DNA of 35,556 nt from Nitrospirota bacterium (GTDB taxonomy: Bacteria; Nitrospirota; Thermodesulfovibrionia; Thermodesulfovibrionales; JdFR-88): the NCBI GenBank assembly GCA_021813405.1, contig JAKAKS010000007.1, positions 1-35,556 on the forward strand. Direction: 5' to 3'. The stretch's first letter is position 1; every line of letters starts with the position of its first letter. Made by a program: the position numbers and the translations under genes. The notes under the pieces were generated by a model. That model was not told where the DNA came from, searched no databases, and saw only the letters and a list, made by a program, of their open reading frames with translations. Shown in pieces: positions 5,916-25,867 of this stretch.

Positions 5916-8171
5916 ATGCCAGGCGAAGGGGATTTTTCCACAAAACAATACGAACTGAGGGCATTCGAGCCAGGCCAGCTTGCCTCTCCAAGGCAGATAA
6001 GGCTGGAGGACTTCGAGCAGACCGATGAAAAGCACCTGCGGGACTACCTGCATGTGCTGATGAGGCGCAAATGGATAATAGCCGCGTTCTTCATCGCGGT
6101 AGTTTCGCTGGTCACCATTTCAAGCTTACTGATGACGCCGCTTTACAAATCCACGGCGGTCATAAAGATAGATAAGGAAAATCCCAACGTGCTTGCCTTC
6201 AAGGACGTACAGGTGGTAAGCCCGGACGCGGACTACTATAACACCCAGTACAAGATACTCAAAAGCAGAAGCCTGGCCAAACGGACCATAACGGATTTGA
6301 ATCTGGACAGAAATCCGGTTTTCAACCCGATGGCCGCCGCGCCAGGCGGCCTGATAACATCCATCAAGGATGCGTTCTACGGCCTCATCCCGCTGTTTCA
6401 CCGCAGCACTGGCAAAGACAGCAGCGAGGACATCAGCAATGAGCCCCCGGAGATGACCCCGCTCATCAACAGGTTCCTGTCATCAGAGGAGGTCCTGCCG
6501 GAACAGAAGTCGCAGCTTGTGAAGGTAAGCTTCGTCTCTGTGAACCCTGGCATGTCCCAGCAGATAGCAAACGGAATCGCCCAGGCGTACATAGATTACA
6601 ACATAGACAGCCGGATAGACGCATCCAACCAGGCCCGGCAGTTTCTTGACAGGCAGATAACCGTGCTTAAGCAGAAGGTGCAGGCGTCCGAGGAGGCGCT
6701 TACGGACTATTCAGCCAAAAATGAGATGCTTTACGCTGACGAAAGCCCCGGCAGGCAGAGCCTTATAGACCAGAAACTGGCCCAGATACAGACGGACCTT
6801 ACCGCCGCAACCACAAGCAGAATACAGACCGAGGCCCTTTACAACCAGCTCAAACAGTCAGGCACGGACAACACCACCATAAACTCCAATCCCATTGTGC
6901 AGGACCTCACGTCCCAGTATGACAAGCTGGAAGCCCGGTACTACAACGAACTCAGGATATACAAGCCGGACTTCCCCAAGATGAGGCAGATGCAAAGCCA
7001 GATGCACGCAATCAGGAAGCGGCTGGCATCCGAAAAGAAAAACATCGTCAAGTCCATTAATTCGGACTACCAGGCCGCAAAGAAAAAAGAGAGGTTTTTA
7101 TCGGACGAGTTTGCAACTGAAAAGGGGCTGGCGCTGGCATATGAGCGCAAGAACATCCAGTACCAGATATTAAAGAGGGACGCCGACGCCAACAAGGACC
7201 TTTACAACAGCCTACTTCAAAGAGTTAAAGAGGTGGAGGTTGCGGCCACCAAAACGGACACCAACATACAGGTGCTGGACACGCCGGAGCTTCCCACATC
7301 ACCGTTCAAGCCCAACAAGTCGCAAAATATCCTCCTCTCAATAATTTTCGGACTCACCGGCGGCATCGGGCTTGCCTTCTTTGTCGAATACTTCGACAAC
7401 ACCCTCAAGGACACTTTCGAGATAGAAAAGACCCTGCGGCTGCCCACCCTGGGCATTATACCGCACCACAGGCTGGCGGAATCCATCAGGCGGCCCATGC
7501 TCATACACTCAAGAACAAGGGGTGTAGTGGCGGAGGCGTTCCGGTCCATCGGCACATTCATCCTCCTTTCGTCCTCCGCCAAACCGCCAAAATCCATACT
7601 TGTCACCAGCCCCGGCGAACGCGAAGGCAAAACAACCGTTTCGCTTAACACGGCGATGGCACTGGCTGAATCCGTTGGCAACGGGCTGATTATAGACGCG
7701 GACCTCCGCAAGCCAAAACTACACCACTCCTTTGGCGTGGACAACTCCGCCGGGCTTTCCACCTACCTTTCCGGCAATATGGAGCTTGAAGACGGGCTCA
7801 TAAAAAAGACCAACACCAACGGCCTGAGCATACTTACTTCCGGCCCGCTGCCTCCAAACCCGTCGGAGCTGATAGTGTCCAGAAGGATGAAGGATCTGCT
7901 GGATGCCGTTTACGATAACTTCGACTTCATAATAATAGACTCCGTGCCGGTAATGGGCATGCCAGACAGCATCTACCTAAGCAGCATTGTGGACGGCTCC
8001 GTTGTGGTAATCCGCGCCGGCGAAACATCCAAAACCGCCCTCTCCGAGACCAAGCGGATATTCAGGAACGTAAATTCCAAAATACTGGGCGTTATCCTGA
8101 ACGGAATGAGGGAAAACGACATGAAATACAACTACTACTCCACATACTACTCATCTTACTTCAAGGAGTAA
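5916..8171 (+). CDS. Wzc/GumC-like chain-length determinant with BY-kinase domain
   Basis: A 751-residue inner-membrane protein. A Wzz-type domain has TM1 at about 53-73 (KWIIAAFFIAVVSLVTI), a long periplasmic coiled-coil region (~200-430) and TM2 at about 470-490. The cytoplasmic part is a bacterial tyrosine kinase: Walker A SPGEREGKTT near 565, Walker A' LIIDADLRKP near 590 and Walker B FIIIDSVPV near 670. The last 16 residues hold a cluster of six tyrosines (Y738, Y740, Y741, Y744, Y745, Y748), the autophosphorylation tail. In characterised systems, cycles of Tyr phosphorylation control oligomerisation and polymer length. A cognate phosphatase is not in the window. It is probably co-transcribed with the wza-like gene. 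Confidence 0.93.
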   Translation: MPGEGDFSTKQYELRAFEPGQLASPRQIRLEDFEQTDEKHLRDYLHVLMRRKWIIAAFFIAVVSLVTISSLLMTPLYKSTAVIKIDKENPNVLAFKDVQVVSPDADYYNTQYKILKSRSLAKRTITDLNLDRNPVFNPMAAAPGGLITSIKDAFYGLIPLFHRSTGKDSSEDISNEPPEMTPLINRFLSSEEVLPEQKSQLVKVSFVSVNPGMSQQIANGIAQAYIDYNIDSRIDASNQARQFLDRQITVLKQKVQASEEALTDYSAKNEMLYADESPGRQSLIDQKLAQIQTDLTAATTSRIQTEALYNQLKQSGTDNTTINSNPIVQDLTSQYDKLEARYYNELRIYKPDFPKMRQMQSQMHAIRKRLASEKKNIVKSINSDYQAAKKKERFLSDEFATEKGLALAYERKNIQYQILKRDADANKDLYNSLLQRVKEVEVAATKTDTNIQVLDTPELPTSPFKPNKSQNILLSIIFGLTGGIGLAFFVEYFDNTLKDTFEIEKTLRLPTLGIIPHHRLAESIRRPMLIHSRTRGVVAEAFRSIGTFILLSSSAKPPKSILVTSPGEREGKTTVSLNTAMALAESVGNGLIIDADLRKPKLHHSFGVDNSAGLSTYLSGNMELEDGLIKKTNTNGLSILTSGPLPPNPSELIVSRRMKDLLDAVYDNFDFIIIDSVPVMGMPDSIYLSSIVDGSVVVIRAGETSKTALSETKRIFRNVNSKILGVILNGMRENDMKYNYYSTYYSSYFKE

Positions 8172-14927: not shown

Positions 14928-16592
14928 ATGGCTACTTTCCTTAAAAAACCGCTTTCACCATGGCGCGCGGCCATAGAGACCGCCTTTTACGCCAACTCGG
15001 TTAAAAAAACAAGCATGGCCGAGCTTTACGAGCTGTCTTTGAAGCAGCCGGAGGTGGTAAGGACCGATGAGCCGCTTTACAAGCCGGAGCAGTACGGGCT
15101 TCCTGCTGACGCCAAGGTGCTTGTTTCAATAGATGGCGGCGTGGTAGGCCGGACTGCCAAGGCAAGGAGACTTGTGCGGGAACTGGCTAAACCGGAAAGC
15201 GACAAATTAAAAGCCATTTTGCTTGAGGCGCTGTACCAGTTCAACAGGCGGCCGGGGCTGTGGCTGGAAGGTATTGTAGGGCTGCATCCGGATTTCATGA
15301 TAAAGGCGCATCTGCTGAGCCCCGCTTCGGATGCCAAGAACATGCTGGACTGGGGGTTCAACTTCACACCCATGATGGAGCCGTGGGCCGGCACATTCAG
15401 GAAGTCAAAGGTACTCAATGAGCCGGATATACTTGTATTTGCGGATCCGGAATGGAGCAATCCGGCTTACCCAAGCGGGCTTGTAATAATAGACGAGGCG
15501 GAAAACTGCATAACCATACTTGGGATGAGGTATTTTGGCGAGAGGAAGAAAGGCACGCTCACTCTGGCATGGACTGCCGGGGTGCGCCATAATATGGTAG
15601 CCTGCCATGGCGGGATAAAGACGATAGGCAACAACGCGCCCGTGGCGGTGTTCGGCTTGTCCGGTTCAGGCAAATCATCCATAACCAACAGCCTGGACCA
15701 CGAGGGCACTCTTAAGCCGTCAGAACACGTGACCGTTGTGCACGACGATGCCTTCCTGATAGATTTCGAGAGCAATCTTACAATGGCGCTTGAGCCCTCG
15801 CTTTTTGACAAGACGGACTCCGTGCGGTTCAACGACCCTATAATCAAATACTTCTACTCCGCCCAGAACGTTGCCGTGCTTGAAACGCCCGAAGGCGAAA
15901 GAAAGATAGTTGCCGAAGACATACGCAACGACAACGGCAGGTGCATAAAATCCAGGGACATGTTCGACCATGCCGACTACTGCGCCGCGCCGGATAAAGT
16001 CATCTGGCTTCAGAAGGACCCCAGCATACCGCCAATCTGCAAAGTGAACTCCGCCGGGCTGGCCGTGGCCATGGGGGCCTCGCTTTCCACCCTGAGGGCC
16101 AAGGGCGTTGAGAATGTGGACGCCAAGGAGCTTGAAAAACTTGTTATCGAACCCTTCGCCAACCCGTTCAGGGTGCATCCGCTTCTGGTGGACTGCCAGC
16201 AGTTCATGAAGCTCTTCAAGGCGGGATGCGAGTGCTATATAATGAACACGCACGCATTCGGCACCCCGGACGACCTGACGGACATCCCGAAGGAATTGTC
16301 TCTTAAGATAATGACCGAGCTTGTGCGCGGCAATATAGAATGGAGGGACTGGAAACGGTTCCCGGGCCTTGCCATACCCAAAAACGGCGCGGAGATATTC
16401 GGGGCGGACTTCGACAAGAAATATAAACCGTCCAGAAACGCCGTTTACATGCAGTACCTGCGCGACAGGATGCAGGACAGGATAACCTACCTCTCCAACA
16501 AGAGGGACATAGAGCATGACATGGACAGTTCTTTCATAGACCCGCTGGTTGTGGCCAGGACCGTTATAGACAAGGTCCTGAACCCGGTCTGA
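14928..16592 (+). CDS. Phosphoenolpyruvate carboxykinase, divergent ATP-type family member
   Basis: A 554-residue enzyme that should interconvert oxaloacetate and PEP with a nucleoside triphosphate, linking the TCA cycle to gluconeogenesis. Active-site motifs match the ATP-type fold: YFGERKKGT with K207/K208, CHGG with H227 (a metal-ligand position), P-loop GLSGSGKSS at 243-251 and HDDAF at 272-276 with two Asp. The usual substrate-binding GRSPKDK loop is replaced by GRTAKARR at 74-81, keeping the Arg. The rest differs strongly from the E. coli enzyme, so cofactor (ATP, GTP or other) is not certain. A leading AGGAGG site supports the start. The M50 protease and trpS follow closely. Confidence 0.82.
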   Translation: MATFLKKPLSPWRAAIETAFYANSVKKTSMAELYELSLKQPEVVRTDEPLYKPEQYGLPADAKVLVSIDGGVVGRTAKARRLVRELAKPESDKLKAILLEALYQFNRRPGLWLEGIVGLHPDFMIKAHLLSPASDAKNMLDWGFNFTPMMEPWAGTFRKSKVLNEPDILVFADPEWSNPAYPSGLVIIDEAENCITILGMRYFGERKKGTLTLAWTAGVRHNMVACHGGIKTIGNNAPVAVFGLSGSGKSSITNSLDHEGTLKPSEHVTVVHDDAFLIDFESNLTMALEPSLFDKTDSVRFNDPIIKYFYSAQNVAVLETPEGERKIVAEDIRNDNGRCIKSRDMFDHADYCAAPDKVIWLQKDPSIPPICKVNSAGLAVAMGASLSTLRAKGVENVDAKELEKLVIEPFANPFRVHPLLVDCQQFMKLFKAGCECYIMNTHAFGTPDDLTDIPKELSLKIMTELVRGNIEWRDWKRFPGLAIPKNGAEIFGADFDKKYKPSRNAVYMQYLRDRMQDRITYLSNKRDIEHDMDSSFIDPLVVARTVIDKVLNPV

Positions 16593-20153: not shown

Positions 20154-21341
20154 TTAAAAAGAAAAATTCCTTCTTTTGAATATCTCGAAAAAGGCCCTGA
20201 AAAGGCGGGGGTCGTAATTTGAATCAAGATGCATAACGGCCAGCGCCCGCTCCGGCGTAAGCGCTTTCCTGGAGTAAACCATGCCCGAGTTAAGGCTGTC
20301 GAAATCGTCGGCTATCTTTACAATCCTGCTGAATATGAGAGGAGACCGGTCTGCAAACCCGCCGGGATACCCTGAGCCGTCCCGGGCCAGATGATGCTCC
20401 AGCGCCACCAGCATAGAGAGTATGGATACATCATTTATGCCCCTGGTCCGCAGGATGTTTTTAACGCCTTCCACCGGGTGCATTTTAATGAGCTCCATCT
20501 CGGCCGGGGAGAACTCGCCTTTTTTATTCAGTATGCGCGTGGGTATTTCCAGCATGCCTATATCGTGGAAGAGTGCCGCCATCCCCAGGAGGCCAAGGGA
20601 ATATCTCTTGAACCCGAGCTTTTCCCCAATTCCGATAGAAAACACCGCCACATTTACCGGGTGCTGTACGTTATAGCTCTCTTCGTTTCTAAGCGTTGTA
20701 AGGCCAAGGACAAATGTTTCGTCCTTGAAATAGCCGTCAACCAGCGATTGTATGGCGCGCTTCACTTTCCTGATGTCCGGCTTCCGGCCGGACCGGATTG
20801 CGCCCAGCACATCGGAATAGGCGGCGATGGTCCTAAGATATGCCCTTTTGGCGGTTGCCCTCTTGTCCTTGAAATCTATGGAGTTCTCCCGTTGGGAAAA
20901 AACAGGGCCTCCAACCGAAACTCCTTTTTTCATCCTGGATTCCAGGCCGGACTGTATCTCCGCAGCGTCGCCGCCCTCTTTAATGGCGTAAGCCAGGGCT
21001 ATCAAGTCATCATGCTGCAAGGGCGCCTTGAAAGTGAGCGCACCTATGCCTCTTGAATTCATCTCCCGCGTAAGCACGGAAAAATTGTCCAGGTCGTTAA
21101 GGGAAGCCCTGATTCTCACGTCCTCAATAAAGAACGATTCGTCCGTCATCTTAAGCGTGATCTCGCCGTCTTCGCCAAGAAGCTCTTCAAGCTCCTTCAT
21201 AACCCTTGCTGCGGAATTCACAACGGCCTCGTTCTTGGCCTTGTAAATGCCTGCCATTTTTAAAAGTATGGATAGGTTTGTTACAAGCGGCCTGCCGTGC
21301 TTTGCTATTTTGTCCAGGAAAAGGTCGTCAATGTATTTCAT
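20154..21341 (-). CDS. HD-GYP domain protein with N-terminal module shared with its neighbour
   Basis: A 395-residue cytoplasmic protein. The C-terminal half is an HD-GYP phosphodiesterase domain: H227 in the QHPVNVAV helix, HD at 259-260 (ALFHDIGML), KMHPVEG, EHHLARDGSGYPGG with GYP at 324-326, and IVKIADDFDSL. This family hydrolyses cyclic di-GMP or related cyclic dinucleotides. The N-terminal ~125 residues resemble the N-terminus of the HEAT-repeat protein encoded upstream. No receiver or PAS domain is seen. Its ATG overlaps the HEAT gene stop (ATGA), so the two are made together and may interact. Confidence 0.9.
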   Translation of the reverse strand: MKYIDDLFLDKIAKHGRPLVTNLSILLKMAGIYKAKNEAVVNSAARVMKELEELLGEDGEITLKMTDESFFIEDVRIRASLNDLDNFSVLTREMNSRGIGALTFKAPLQHDDLIALAYAIKEGGDAAEIQSGLESRMKKGVSVGGPVFSQRENSIDFKDKRATAKRAYLRTIAAYSDVLGAIRSGRKPDIRKVKRAIQSLVDGYFKDETFVLGLTTLRNEESYNVQHPVNVAVFSIGIGEKLGFKRYSLGLLGMAALFHDIGMLEIPTRILNKKGEFSPAEMELIKMHPVEGVKNILRTRGINDVSILSMLVALEHHLARDGSGYPGGFADRSPLIFSRIVKIADDFDSLNSGMVYSRKALTPERALAVMHLDSNYDPRLFRAFFEIFKRRNFSF

Positions 21342-23002
21342 TGGGCCGCTACCCCGGAACTTTTTAAAGAATTCAAGCAGGCCTCGCGTACCAGGCTTTT
21401 CCTGGATTTAGCGCCTTTTTTAAGCATCTTGAATGCTTCCTCGTCCTGCACAAAGGCAAGCCCGTATGCCGCGGCGGCCCTCAACTCAACTATCTGGTCT
21501 TTTTTGAAAAAGCCCCTCTTCCTGAAAAAACCGCGCAGAAGCGGAAACGCCTGCTCTCTCCCAAGCGATCCCAGCATCTCCAGAAACTCCCTTTTTTCGG
21601 AGAATGGCCTTTTGGTAAATCCATCCGCCTGGACTGCCGAAGTTACATAACTTAAAAGGTCCTCACCGCCGTATTTTTTAAGGGCCTTCATCGCCCCGGT
21701 CCTGATCGCGGAATCCCTGTCTTCAAGCAGTTTCATAAGCGGCCCTTTTGCTTCCGGGGCCCCGATCATGTCCAGGGCCTTCATGCACTCTTTTCTTACC
21801 CTTGCCTCGGAATGGGCCAGCATGCCCTCTATAGGCTTAACGGCAGCGGGGTTTTTGCTTTGCCCCAGCAGCATGATTATGTTCCTTACAAGAAACCACC
21901 TTTCGTCTGTAAGGAACCGGACAAACGGGGCTATGTCCCTGGCGGCCTCTGCTGCAAGGAGGCTGCAGATCATATGCCTGGCCTTCCTGTCTTCCACGTC
22001 GCCCAGAAAAAGCACCAGATTTCCGGTGGACTGCCTGGCCACCCACGCAAGATATTCCTGGCGCTCCGCGGCATCCCTGGAAGCAGACATGAACCAGCGG
22101 ATATCCTCAATCCCGGTAAGCTTGTCTATAAGCCTGGCAAGGAGTTCCCTTTTTTCGTTATCGGCCCTCTCGAAGAAATCCGCTGTCTTCTTGCCGAAAT
22201 AAAGAAAATCGGCCGCATTCCCATGGTCCTCCCACAGCTCCATGATTGAAAAAAGGCCCTTTACATAATTCCCGTAAGAAGAAAGCTCCGTCTCCGTCTG
22301 CATCAGTTCAAAAAACATTCCGGCAATTGTCTTTAACAGGGCCGCTGGATTTATGGCGGAGAGTTCAGCCCTTAAATCCCTCATCTCGTCCTCACTTATG
22401 GGCTGAACGTCCATTTCCATGCCGGCCGGAATTATGGTCAGTTCCGAATATTCGCCCTGAATTCCCTGGCCTGCCACCTGCGGTGTCTGCTGCCCGGAGG
22501 AAATGAACCTTTCCTGCAAATCAGTTTCCTCTTCGCCCAACCGCTCAGGCACAAAATACCTGACGTGCTCCAGTTCCTTTTCCCACAGCAAAGTCACAAC
22601 ATCATCTTCGGAGTTTTCCCCTCTGGATGCCGTCTTTAGAATGTCTATGAAGATTTCAATCTCGTCTCTTGAGATACCACGGAGGAAAGCAAACCCCCTT
22701 ATGCCGTCGATAAACAGCGAGAGCGCCAGATTGTCCTGCCTGTCCTCGCTGAAAAAGACCTCCTGCCCCATATAGCTTATAGAGAACTGGCTTACCTCAA
22801 CGTCCAGCAGTTCGTGGTCCGCGAAAAAGCCGTCCATTTTTTCACACAGATCGGCTATGAATTTCTGGGCGATGGGGTTTTGCCTTGGGTATACGTTAAG
22901 CGTCTTTAAGGTCTTGGTAAAAGTCTTGAAAATATCCCCGGCCAGGGCCAGGCTACGCTCGTCCGGCTCCGTCACTCCGGCGCGTTCTTCCGAAGACTCC
23001 AT
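21338..23002 (-). CDS. HEAT-repeat protein coupled to an HD-GYP protein
   Basis: A 554-residue protein. Residues ~33-125 form an alpha/beta module (VYPRQNPIAQKF, then LLDVEVSQFSISYMGQEVFF, then GIRGFAFLRGISRDEIEIF) that matches the N-terminus of the downstream HD-GYP protein in order and spacing. The C-terminal ~230 residues are helical HEAT-like repeats (for example AVKPIEGMLAHSEARVRKEC and AKGPLMKLLEDRDSAIRTGA). HEAT solenoids bind proteins. No signal peptide or membrane helix is visible. The start ATG lacks a Shine-Dalgarno; a promoter ends seven bases upstream. A cyclic-dinucleotide signalling or scaffold role is an inference. Confidence 0.83.
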   Translation of the reverse strand: MESSEERAGVTEPDERSLALAGDIFKTFTKTLKTLNVYPRQNPIAQKFIADLCEKMDGFFADHELLDVEVSQFSISYMGQEVFFSEDRQDNLALSLFIDGIRGFAFLRGISRDEIEIFIDILKTASRGENSEDDVVTLLWEKELEHVRYFVPERLGEEETDLQERFISSGQQTPQVAGQGIQGEYSELTIIPAGMEMDVQPISEDEMRDLRAELSAINPAALLKTIAGMFFELMQTETELSSYGNYVKGLFSIMELWEDHGNAADFLYFGKKTADFFERADNEKRELLARLIDKLTGIEDIRWFMSASRDAAERQEYLAWVARQSTGNLVLFLGDVEDRKARHMICSLLAAEAARDIAPFVRFLTDERWFLVRNIIMLLGQSKNPAAVKPIEGMLAHSEARVRKECMKALDMIGAPEAKGPLMKLLEDRDSAIRTGAMKALKKYGGEDLLSYVTSAVQADGFTKRPFSEKREFLEMLGSLGREQAFPLLRGFFRKRGFFKKDQIVELRAAAAYGLAFVQDEEAFKMLKKGAKSRKSLVREACLNSLKSSGVAAQ

Positions 23003-23075: not shown

Positions 23076-24197
23076 CTATTTCACCAGAACCAGATTGTCC
23101 CTGTGAATAACTTCTCCGGAGTATCTGTAACCAAGGACATCCTCTATCTCGGAGGTCTTTTTGCCTTTTATTCTCCGTATTTCGGCGGACGAATAATTCA
23201 CCAGGCCCTTGGCTATCCTCTGCCCGGCAACAGACAGGCAATACACCGGGTCGCCTTTTTCAAAATCACCCTCCACATCCACAATGCCTGAAGGCAGCAG
23301 GCTTTTGCCCCTTGCCAGAAGCGCCTCCGCCGCCCCGTTGTCCAGAACCAGCCTGCCTTTGGATTTAAGGCCGTATGCTATCCAGCCCTTCCGGGCGGAA
23401 ATCCTGCCGTTTCCCGGCTTGAAGACAGTCCCGCAGTTACAGGCCCCCTCTACGGCTTCGGATATTATCCCGGCCTTCCTTCCATTTACGATGTGCACAG
23501 ATATCCCGGCAGCCATTGCCTTTTTGGCGGCAAGGATTTTGGAGTACATCCCCCCCGTTCCAACACCGCTGGTGCTGCCGCCAGCCATGCGTTCTATTTC
23601 AGGCGTTATCTCTTCCACCAGGTGCACCAGTTCCGGCTTATGCGTCTTGTCTTTTGCCGCCGCCGGATTGGATGTGTACAGCCCGTCCACGTCCGAAAGT
23701 ATCACAAGCCTGTCGGCCTCGGCCAGAGAGGCCACAAGCGCGGCAAGCTGGTCGTTGTCTCCAAACCTTATCTCGTCAACGGCTACGGTGTCGTTTTCAT
23801 TTATAACCGGCACCACTCCAAGAGACAGCAGAGCGAAGATCGTATTCTTCGCGTTTATGTACCTGGCCCTTTCAGTAAACACGTCTCTGGTAAGGAGAAT
23901 CTGGGCCACCTTCCTGTCTTTTTCGCCAAATGCCCTTTCATAAGCCCACATCAGCGCGGATTGCCCTACCGCGGCGGCCGCCTGCTTCATCATTATCTCG
24001 GCCGGCCTCTTCTCCTTTTTTATACCCAGCCTGCCAAAACCGGCAGCAACAGCCCCGGATGACACGATGATAACCTCATGGCCGCAGGCCAGAAGACGGC
24101 AGATGTCTTCCGCGATCAGGGATATCCTGTGCTCGTCCAGGGGGGCGGAACCGGCGCCGGCAAGTATATTGGAGCCTATTTTTACAACCAGTCTCAT
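23076..24197 (-). CDS. proB: Glutamate 5-kinase
   Basis: A 373-residue proline-pathway enzyme that phosphorylates L-glutamate to glutamyl 5-phosphate. The amino-acid kinase domain shows RLVVKIGSNIL at the N-terminus, IIVSSGAVAAGFGRLG, INENDTVAVDEIRFGDND and GTGGMYSKILAAKKA. A C-terminal PUA domain follows (~275-365). It overlaps the obgE stop (ATGA) and ends the rplU-rpmA-obgE-proB block, an order common in bacteria. proA is not in the window. Confidence 0.95.
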   Translation of the reverse strand: MRLVVKIGSNILAGAGSAPLDEHRISLIAEDICRLLACGHEVIIVSSGAVAAGFGRLGIKKEKRPAEIMMKQAAAAVGQSALMWAYERAFGEKDRKVAQILLTRDVFTERARYINAKNTIFALLSLGVVPVINENDTVAVDEIRFGDNDQLAALVASLAEADRLVILSDVDGLYTSNPAAAKDKTHKPELVHLVEEITPEIERMAGGSTSGVGTGGMYSKILAAKKAMAAGISVHIVNGRKAGIISEAVEGACNCGTVFKPGNGRISARKGWIAYGLKSKGRLVLDNGAAEALLARGKSLLPSGIVDVEGDFEKGDPVYCLSVAGQRIAKGLVNYSSAEIRRIKGKKTSEIEDVLGYRYSGEVIHRDNLVLVK

Positions 24198-25219
24198 AAG
24201 ACGTGTTCTTCTTTTTCTTTTTTCCCCCCCTGCGCCTTGCGGGCAAGGTATTTCAGCAGCGGGGCAAGCCCTTTTTTCCTTACCGCGGATATGGAGAAAA
24301 AGTCGATATTGTTCTCATCGCAATAAGATTTCAACTTTTCCAGCTTCTCCGGGTCCGCCGCGTCCGCCTTGGAAGCCACCACGGCCTGCGGCTTTTCCAT
24401 GAGCGCCGGGCTGTGGAGCCCAAGCTCCCTGTTTATCTTTTCCAGGTCCTGCACCGGATCTCCTGGCTGCCCCACCGAAACATCAACAAGGTGCGCCAGT
24501 ATCCTGGTCCTCTCAACGTGCCTTAAAAACTGGAAGCCAAGCCCCACCCCCCTGTGCGCACCCTCTATAAGCCCCGGAACGTCCGCCACAACGAAGCTTT
24601 TGAAGCCTTCAAGTTTCACCACGCCCAGCATCGGCTCCAGGGTGGTAAAGGGGTAATCGGCAATTTTTGGTTTTGCCGTTGTAATAACGGAAAGCAGCGT
24701 GGATTTGCCCGCGTTGGGAAGGCCTATTAGCCCCACGTCGGCCAGCAGTTTCAGCTCTATATTTACAAGCTTGTCTTCCCCGGGCATGCCGGGCTGGGCA
24801 AACTTCGGCGCCTGCCGGACGGCCGTTGCAAAATGCTGGTTCCCCTGCCCGCCACGGCCCCCTTTTGCCGCAACGAACTCCTTGCCGGGGGCATCCATGT
24901 CCGCCATCAACTCTCCGGTTTCCGCATCAGAGATAACAGAGCCAACCGGCACGCGGACTACAAGGTCGCCGCCGTCCTTGCCGTGCATCTTTTTCTTCAT
25001 GCCGTTCTGGCCTTTTTGGGCTATGTACTCCCGCTGGTATTTGAAATCAAGGAGTGTGGATAGTTCAGGGTCCGCCCTAAAGATGACATGCCCTCCCCTT
25101 CCGCCGTCGCCGCCGTCCGGGCCGCCGCGCGGCACGTACTTTTCGCGCCGGAAGCTGACCGAGCCGGCCCCTCCGTGTCCGCTTTGTATATGTATTTTTA
25201 CGAAATCGACAAATTTCAT
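24194..25219 (-). CDS. obgE: Obg family GTPase (ObgE/CgtA)
   Basis: A 341-residue GTPase linked to large-subunit assembly and stress control. The glycine-rich Obg domain occupies ~1-158 (GHGGAGSVSFRREKYVPRGG, GGDGGRGGHV). The G domain starts at VGLIGLPNAGKST (G1), with DVPG (G3) and ASKADAAD (G4). The C-terminal domain of some relatives is absent; the protein ends in a charged KKEKEEHVL tail. A terminator-like hairpin separates it from rpmA and may reduce its expression relative to the ribosomal proteins. Confidence 0.95.
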   Translation of the reverse strand: MKFVDFVKIHIQSGHGGAGSVSFRREKYVPRGGPDGGDGGRGGHVIFRADPELSTLLDFKYQREYIAQKGQNGMKKKMHGKDGGDLVVRVPVGSVISDAETGELMADMDAPGKEFVAAKGGRGGQGNQHFATAVRQAPKFAQPGMPGEDKLVNIELKLLADVGLIGLPNAGKSTLLSVITTAKPKIADYPFTTLEPMLGVVKLEGFKSFVVADVPGLIEGAHRGVGLGFQFLRHVERTRILAHLVDVSVGQPGDPVQDLEKINRELGLHSPALMEKPQAVVASKADAADPEKLEKLKSYCDENNIDFFSISAVRKKGLAPLLKYLARKAQGGKKEKEEHVL

Positions 25220-25555: not shown

Positions 25556-25867
25556 CTAGCCTCCAATTTTAATTTCTTTGATCCGGACTTCCGTGTAAGG
25601 CTGCCTGTGCCCCCTCAGTTTGCGGTGGCCCTTCCTCTGCTTCTGCTTGAAGACCAGCACCTTGCCGGTTTTGCCGGCGGAGATCACTTCAGCCGTTACG
25701 CTGGCCTTTTCAACATAGGGATTGCCGGTAACCATGTTACCGTCCCCGCCAACAGCCAACACTTTATCGAACACAACTTCGCCTTCGGACTCAAGCTTCT
25801 CCACAGCCATCGTCTGTCCGGAAACTACTCTGTACTGCTTCCCGCCTGTTTCTATAATCGCATACAT
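25556..25867 (-). CDS. rplU: Large ribosomal subunit protein L21
   Basis: A 103-residue bL21: [14 protein letters not shown] at the start, [20 protein letters not shown] and a short KIKEIKIGG-like end (RIKEIKIGG). It is the first gene of the operon, with a GGAGG site eight to nine bases before the ATG and a clear promoter 24-52 bases upstream. Confidence 0.97.

Follow-up and report, generated by a model that had tools for sequence, protein, structure and literature searches.

The 35,556-nucleotide window analysed here (contig JAKAKS010000007.1 of the Nitrospirota bacterium assembly GCA_021813405.1) carries on its minus strand an rplU-like gene (25556-25867), obgE (24194-25219) and proB (23076-24197), each assigned from its open reading frame and by similarity, followed by a gene for a 554-residue HEAT-repeat protein (21338..23002) and one for a 395-residue HD-GYP protein (20154..21341). 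The last two genes overlap by the four nucleotides ATGA (21338..21341), which join the HEAT stop codon to the HD-GYP start codon; the overlap had been described in the initial annotation and is borne out by the sequence, as are the coordinates of both reading frames. An overlap of four bases also links obgE and proB. In the HEAT protein the Pfam models HEAT_2 (E 2e-21, in three stretches covering the C-terminal half) and HEAT_PBS (E 4e-8) delineate a repeat solenoid at residues ~331-550 (21353..22012, minus strand), which is all-helical in a low-confidence AlphaFold model. In the HD-GYP protein HD_5 matches residues 238-380 above the Pfam cut-off (E 2.5e-19), and alignment to 35 relatives and to PmGH, the GAF-HD-GYP protein of Persephonella marina (PDB 4mcw, E 1e-16), places the domain at residues ~219-388 (20178..20687, minus strand). 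PmGH heads the PDB ranking for this part, followed by 5z7c, a 3'3'-cGAMP phosphodiesterase, and 4r8z, a phosphodiesterase for cyclic di-GMP. The HD-GYP protein of the nearest named relative, a Nitrospirae (Nitrospirota) metagenome-assembled genome, is 94% identical. Elsewhere in the window, a plus-strand reading frame (15000-16589) weakly matches ATP-type PEP carboxykinase in its mid-region only (E 1e-14), and may be a divergent member or a relative of that family.

Both proteins of the pair begin with a common module of ~125 residues, at residues ~21-150 of the HEAT protein (22553..22942, minus strand) and ~16-145 of the HD-GYP protein (20907..21296, minus strand). Such a shared N-terminus had been proposed from matching landmarks, and profiles of relatives now confirm it; the module is indeed found at the proposed positions (~33-125 and ~25-120) but is somewhat longer, reaching to about residue 150 and residue 145, respectively. 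In a one-profile alignment V37-Y38-P-R-Q-N42 of the HEAT protein, with the landmark tyrosine, is column-aligned with I32-Y33-K-A-K-N37 of the HD-GYP protein, the predicted strand pair occupies the same columns in both modules, D90-N-L aligns with D85-N-F, and G100-I101 and F106 align with G98-I99 and F104. The columns conserved in common (L, Y, N/H, L, L, V/I, L, N, F, G, I, F, G, L, E, L, F) agree with the earlier hand alignment, and are chiefly hydrophobic with the addition of Y, N/H, G and E.

Between the window's own copies the likeness is faint, with 15 of 124 positions identical (12%), no BLASTP match of one protein to the other, and a weak hhalign score (10% probability) for the profiles of their class, HEAT_A and HD_A, all of which would suit a chance similarity of short motifs. 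Because this direct comparison is weak, the two other classes of the pair are needed as a bridge: class A, the window type, comprises proteins of ~550 and ~395 residues, class B of ~548 and ~467, and class C of ~720 and ~370. Comparison of the N-terminal profiles upholds homology in class C, where hhalign of the HEAT_C and HD_C modules gives 99% probability (E 3e-18); between the other HEAT and HD profiles the probabilities range from 10 to 97%. A single-sequence phmmer search matches the window HD-GYP protein to a HEAT-protein N-terminus at E 5e-9 (residues 17-122), and a model built from HEAT_C modules only detects both window proteins, HD-GYP at E 7e-9 and HEAT at E 3e-6. Detection is reciprocal, in that HEAT-only module models recover HD-GYP proteins, and HEAT proteins are in turn found with the HD_C and HD_A models, but not with HD_B. 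Among 718 open reading frames the module models matched nothing beyond pair-family proteins or their fragments, and shuffled frames gave no match. The HEAT_C/HD_C alignment and the reciprocal models thus refute chance similarity, which can be given practically no weight. A module profile run over the whole 2.9-Mb genome returned exactly four matches, two per pair, at E 3e-35 or better (6e-36 and 2e-35 for the window HEAT and HD-GYP proteins), despite the twelve HD-GYP domains encoded there; since this profile includes sequences of the same four genes, these E-values are not independent, whereas the HEAT_C-only test is.

No Pfam family, including GAF, PAS and REC, matches more than three of 66 module sequences, and none does so convincingly, while a search of the PDB gave as its best hit a repeat-like match to a designed protein (E 0.005), likewise unconvincing. 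The module is therefore a domain absent from Pfam and apparently undescribed. AlphaFold models of both proteins, computed with two near-identical sequences as input, have mean pLDDT values of 37 and 46, too low to use; at that confidence they hint at an element order of alpha-alpha-beta-beta-alpha-beta-alpha(-beta) or alpha-alpha-beta-beta-alpha-(beta)-alpha. A mean-field coupling analysis of the modules drew on 135 sequences (Neff 113).

A survey of gene neighbourhoods established that the pair is conserved across the phylum and inherited together in Nitrospirota. The module is present in 97 of 148 Nitrospirota genomes, and in 83 of these 97 the copy number is even (binomial p 4e-13 if even and odd are taken as equally likely, phylogeny ignored). 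In a control set of 119 genomes of Bacillota, the phylum of Hespellia, the only match was partial and at chance level, a 42-residue stretch (E 7e-4) in a frame that has a stop, and was taken as chance. All 61 complete adjacent pairs have the HEAT gene before the HD-GYP gene on the same strand, and the two mostly overlap or lie within ~20 nt; start codons were set most upstream in the pair list, so that listed overlaps are upper limits, and two listed 'pairs' were left out as involving short module-less HEAT frames 2.5-3 kb away. HEAT-protein relatives were found in 55 of 61 genomes, the weaker matches including HEAT repeats alone. At the loci read, 138 of 142 module-bearing frames carry HEAT or HD-GYP, the other four being fragments, contig-edge frames or unassigned. 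Scans of viral contigs with the HEAT protein and a class B HD-GYP protein found no relative, and neither of two HEAT proteins used as queries had a match among plasmids; an HD-GYP query retrieved from plasmids mainly the HD-GYP portion of other proteins. Similar N-termini may also occur in Desulfobacterota and Myxococcota, which we take as a lead only. No description of a pair of this kind emerged from a search of the open-access literature for HD-GYP together with HEAT repeats.

In a tree of 135 modules the 70 HEAT and 65 HD copies are fully separated by a single label change (FastTree support about 0.7-0.8), and IQ-TREE, run without bootstraps, gave the same clean split. The module was therefore duplicated before the sampled families separated; subsequent duplications copied the two-gene unit as a whole and gave rise to at least three classes of it. 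Together with the profiles and the related genomes, this supports the earlier proposal of a duplicated domain, fused to a solenoid in one protein and to an HD-GYP domain in the other. The distances within the HEAT module set correlate with those within the HD set (Mantel r 0.87, 0 of 2000 permutations), as shared phylogeny alone could explain.

The surroundings of the pair differ between classes. Class A pairs tend to be preceded by obgE and/or proB, an arrangement that recurs at loci L073, L074, L104 and L105, whereas class B pairs come after tatA, tatC and a ~92-residue gene that is conserved but without a Pfam match (L080; also L098 and L100-L103), a position that suggests a link to Tat export. 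At the same class B loci a ~262-residue gene without a Pfam match precedes tatA. A few class C pairs come after obgE, and at L099 a class B pair lies between tat genes and rplU-obgE-proB, linking both contexts. The host genome's second pair is of class B (contig C49 of genome G000, locus L080, 4461-7471), beside tatA-tatC. Exceptions occur on both sides of the pair. In three genomes from the window's family (L104, L105 and L108) a class A HEAT gene lies after obgE/proB without an HD-GYP partner, and in two genomes an extra stand-alone HD_B gene with no adjoining HEAT gene occurs besides complete pairs (L106, 5007-6407; L107, 5125-6525), so that pairing is strong but not obligatory. At L109 a short frame (6494-6940) following a class B HEAT gene resembles the remnant of an HD-GYP N-terminus.

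The second protein had been called a cyclic-dinucleotide hydrolase, which agrees with its family and is less certain for the activity of this copy. Its residues H227, H259, D260, H288, H316, H317 and D345 correspond to PmGH metal ligands H189, H221, D222, H250, H276, H277 and D305, as listed in PMC4159591; these seven, out of eight PmGH ligands, show no variation across the 35 HD partners from classes A-C, and the GYP motif is intact (G324-Y325-P326). This conservation suggests selection for metal binding, and by sequence the family looks like functional phosphodiesterases. Two positions depart from the PmGH pattern. Y223 stands in place of the third-metal ligand E185, which is mostly tyrosine among the 35 relatives, and M263 (20553-20555) in place of K225, giving HDIGM for HDIGK. 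Glutamate E185 is missing in part of the HD-GYP family, and neither it nor K225 defines membership. Judged by its sequence, the window protein belongs to the HD-GYP subgroup of the HD superfamily, and the two replacements lower confidence in its activity, not in its family. As HDIGM replaces HDIGK, activity is uncertain, and the class A HD-GYP of the window's genus may be impaired. It is somewhat unlikely, though worth weighing, that in this genus the domain is degenerate, or acts on something other than cyclic di-GMP, and has kept a structural or regulatory role, an arrangement that would fit either model of association discussed below. The K225A mutation abolishes PmGH activity (PMC4159591), the 94% identical relative is also HDIGM, and lysine is retained in seven of the eight class A proteins and in every class B and class C protein of the 35-partner alignment, with a few other Nitrospirota pairs likewise lacking it; against degeneration stand the intact GYP motif and seven metal ligands. 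To judge from 14 GGDEF and 12 HD-GYP domains, cyclic-di-GMP signalling is present in the host, and given the GGDEF complement the predicted substrate of the HD-GYP partner is plausibly cyclic di-GMP.

The observation of a shared module in two coupled genes is confirmed, while its interpretation, a heteromeric signalling complex, is partly supported. The best reading, about evenly balanced between right and wrong, is of an ancient, vertically inherited two-protein unit whose paralogous modules would associate to form a HEAT/HD-GYP heteromer. The duplication of a ~125-residue N-terminal domain preceded the divergence of the Nitrospirota families sampled; a HEAT solenoid has kept one copy and an HD-GYP domain the other, in genes that stayed adjacent and in the same order. 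An original homodimer interface may then have become a heterodimer interface between paralogs made in the same cell, with co-translation from overlapping genes assisting association. The HEAT arm would serve as a target-binding scaffold. The HD-GYP arm, placed or gated by its HEAT partner, would act as a phosphodiesterase of cyclic dinucleotides, although in this genus it may be no more than a sensor. Reciprocal profile detection, the four modules forming two pairs, even copy numbers and fixed gene order are consistent with a heteromer, and a shared module inherited jointly suggests that the two proteins may work as one complex. PmGH, whose dimer is made by its N-terminal domain and linker helix (PMC4159591), offers a precedent for N-terminal association. 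Against a heteromer count the orphan HEAT_A and HD_B genes, M263, and the variability of class A where the PmGH substrate-recognition residues R314 and K317 align.

Two other readings accept the homology and dispense with a complex. The module could be a ligand-sensing input through which each protein binds a common signal on its own, the one relaying it to a phosphodiesterase and the other to an effector based on HEAT repeats, which we consider unlikely. Its N-terminal place is that of sensors in other HD-GYP proteins (GAF in PmGH, PMC4159591), the mixed alpha/beta secondary structure predicted for it would fit a small sensor fold, and HEAT survives without HD in three genomes; however, no conserved polar pocket stands out among its mainly hydrophobic columns, and strict pairing with translational coupling exceeds what common sensing would need. 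Less probable still is that the module homodimerises in each protein, the genes being adjacent only through co-regulation of a common pathway in one operon. The long separation of HEAT and HD module clades and the orphans of both kinds would agree with this, but from family to family the gene order and coupling persist in differing surroundings (tat operon, obgE-proB, or neither), which favours stoichiometric co-assembly. Returning to the HEAT/HD-GYP heteromer, a wider form of it, in which the undescribed domain, duplicated a single time and retained since then as a paired heterotypic interaction module, joins a HEAT scaffold to an HD-GYP phosphodiesterase in a phylum-wide local cyclic-dinucleotide signalling complex, with one copy serving the Tat export operon, is possible, though on the doubtful side.

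To our knowledge, few of the numerous HD-GYP proteins have known partners. A co-encoded partner bearing a sister copy of the N-terminal domain provides a direct partner prediction for many uncharacterised Nitrospirota HD-GYP proteins, and while the output domains, HEAT and HD-GYP, are already known, the analysis defines a domain not yet in Pfam.

Several known systems share parts of this architecture. The class B pair of the same genome has HEAT and HD-GYP proteins carrying the same N-terminal modules in the same order and with the same overlap. It differs from the window pair in sequence (27% identity for HEAT, 35% for HD), in a ~80-residue C-terminal extension of an HD protein that has kept HDIGK, and in its position after tatA, tatC and the 92-residue gene. 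PmGH, like the window protein, has a C-terminal HD-GYP domain with the HD, HH, later D and GYP residues, but its N-terminal domain is a GAF domain where the window protein has the new module, its E185 and K225 are replaced by Tyr and Met in the window protein, and no HEAT partner has been described for it. PBS-lyase-type HEAT proteins such as NblB and CpcE (HEAT_2, HEAT_PBS) contain short bacterial HEAT repeats of the class that makes up the C-terminal half of the window HEAT protein, which nevertheless scores far below the curated cut-offs of both the NblB and CpcE models and begins with an N-terminal module that these models lack.
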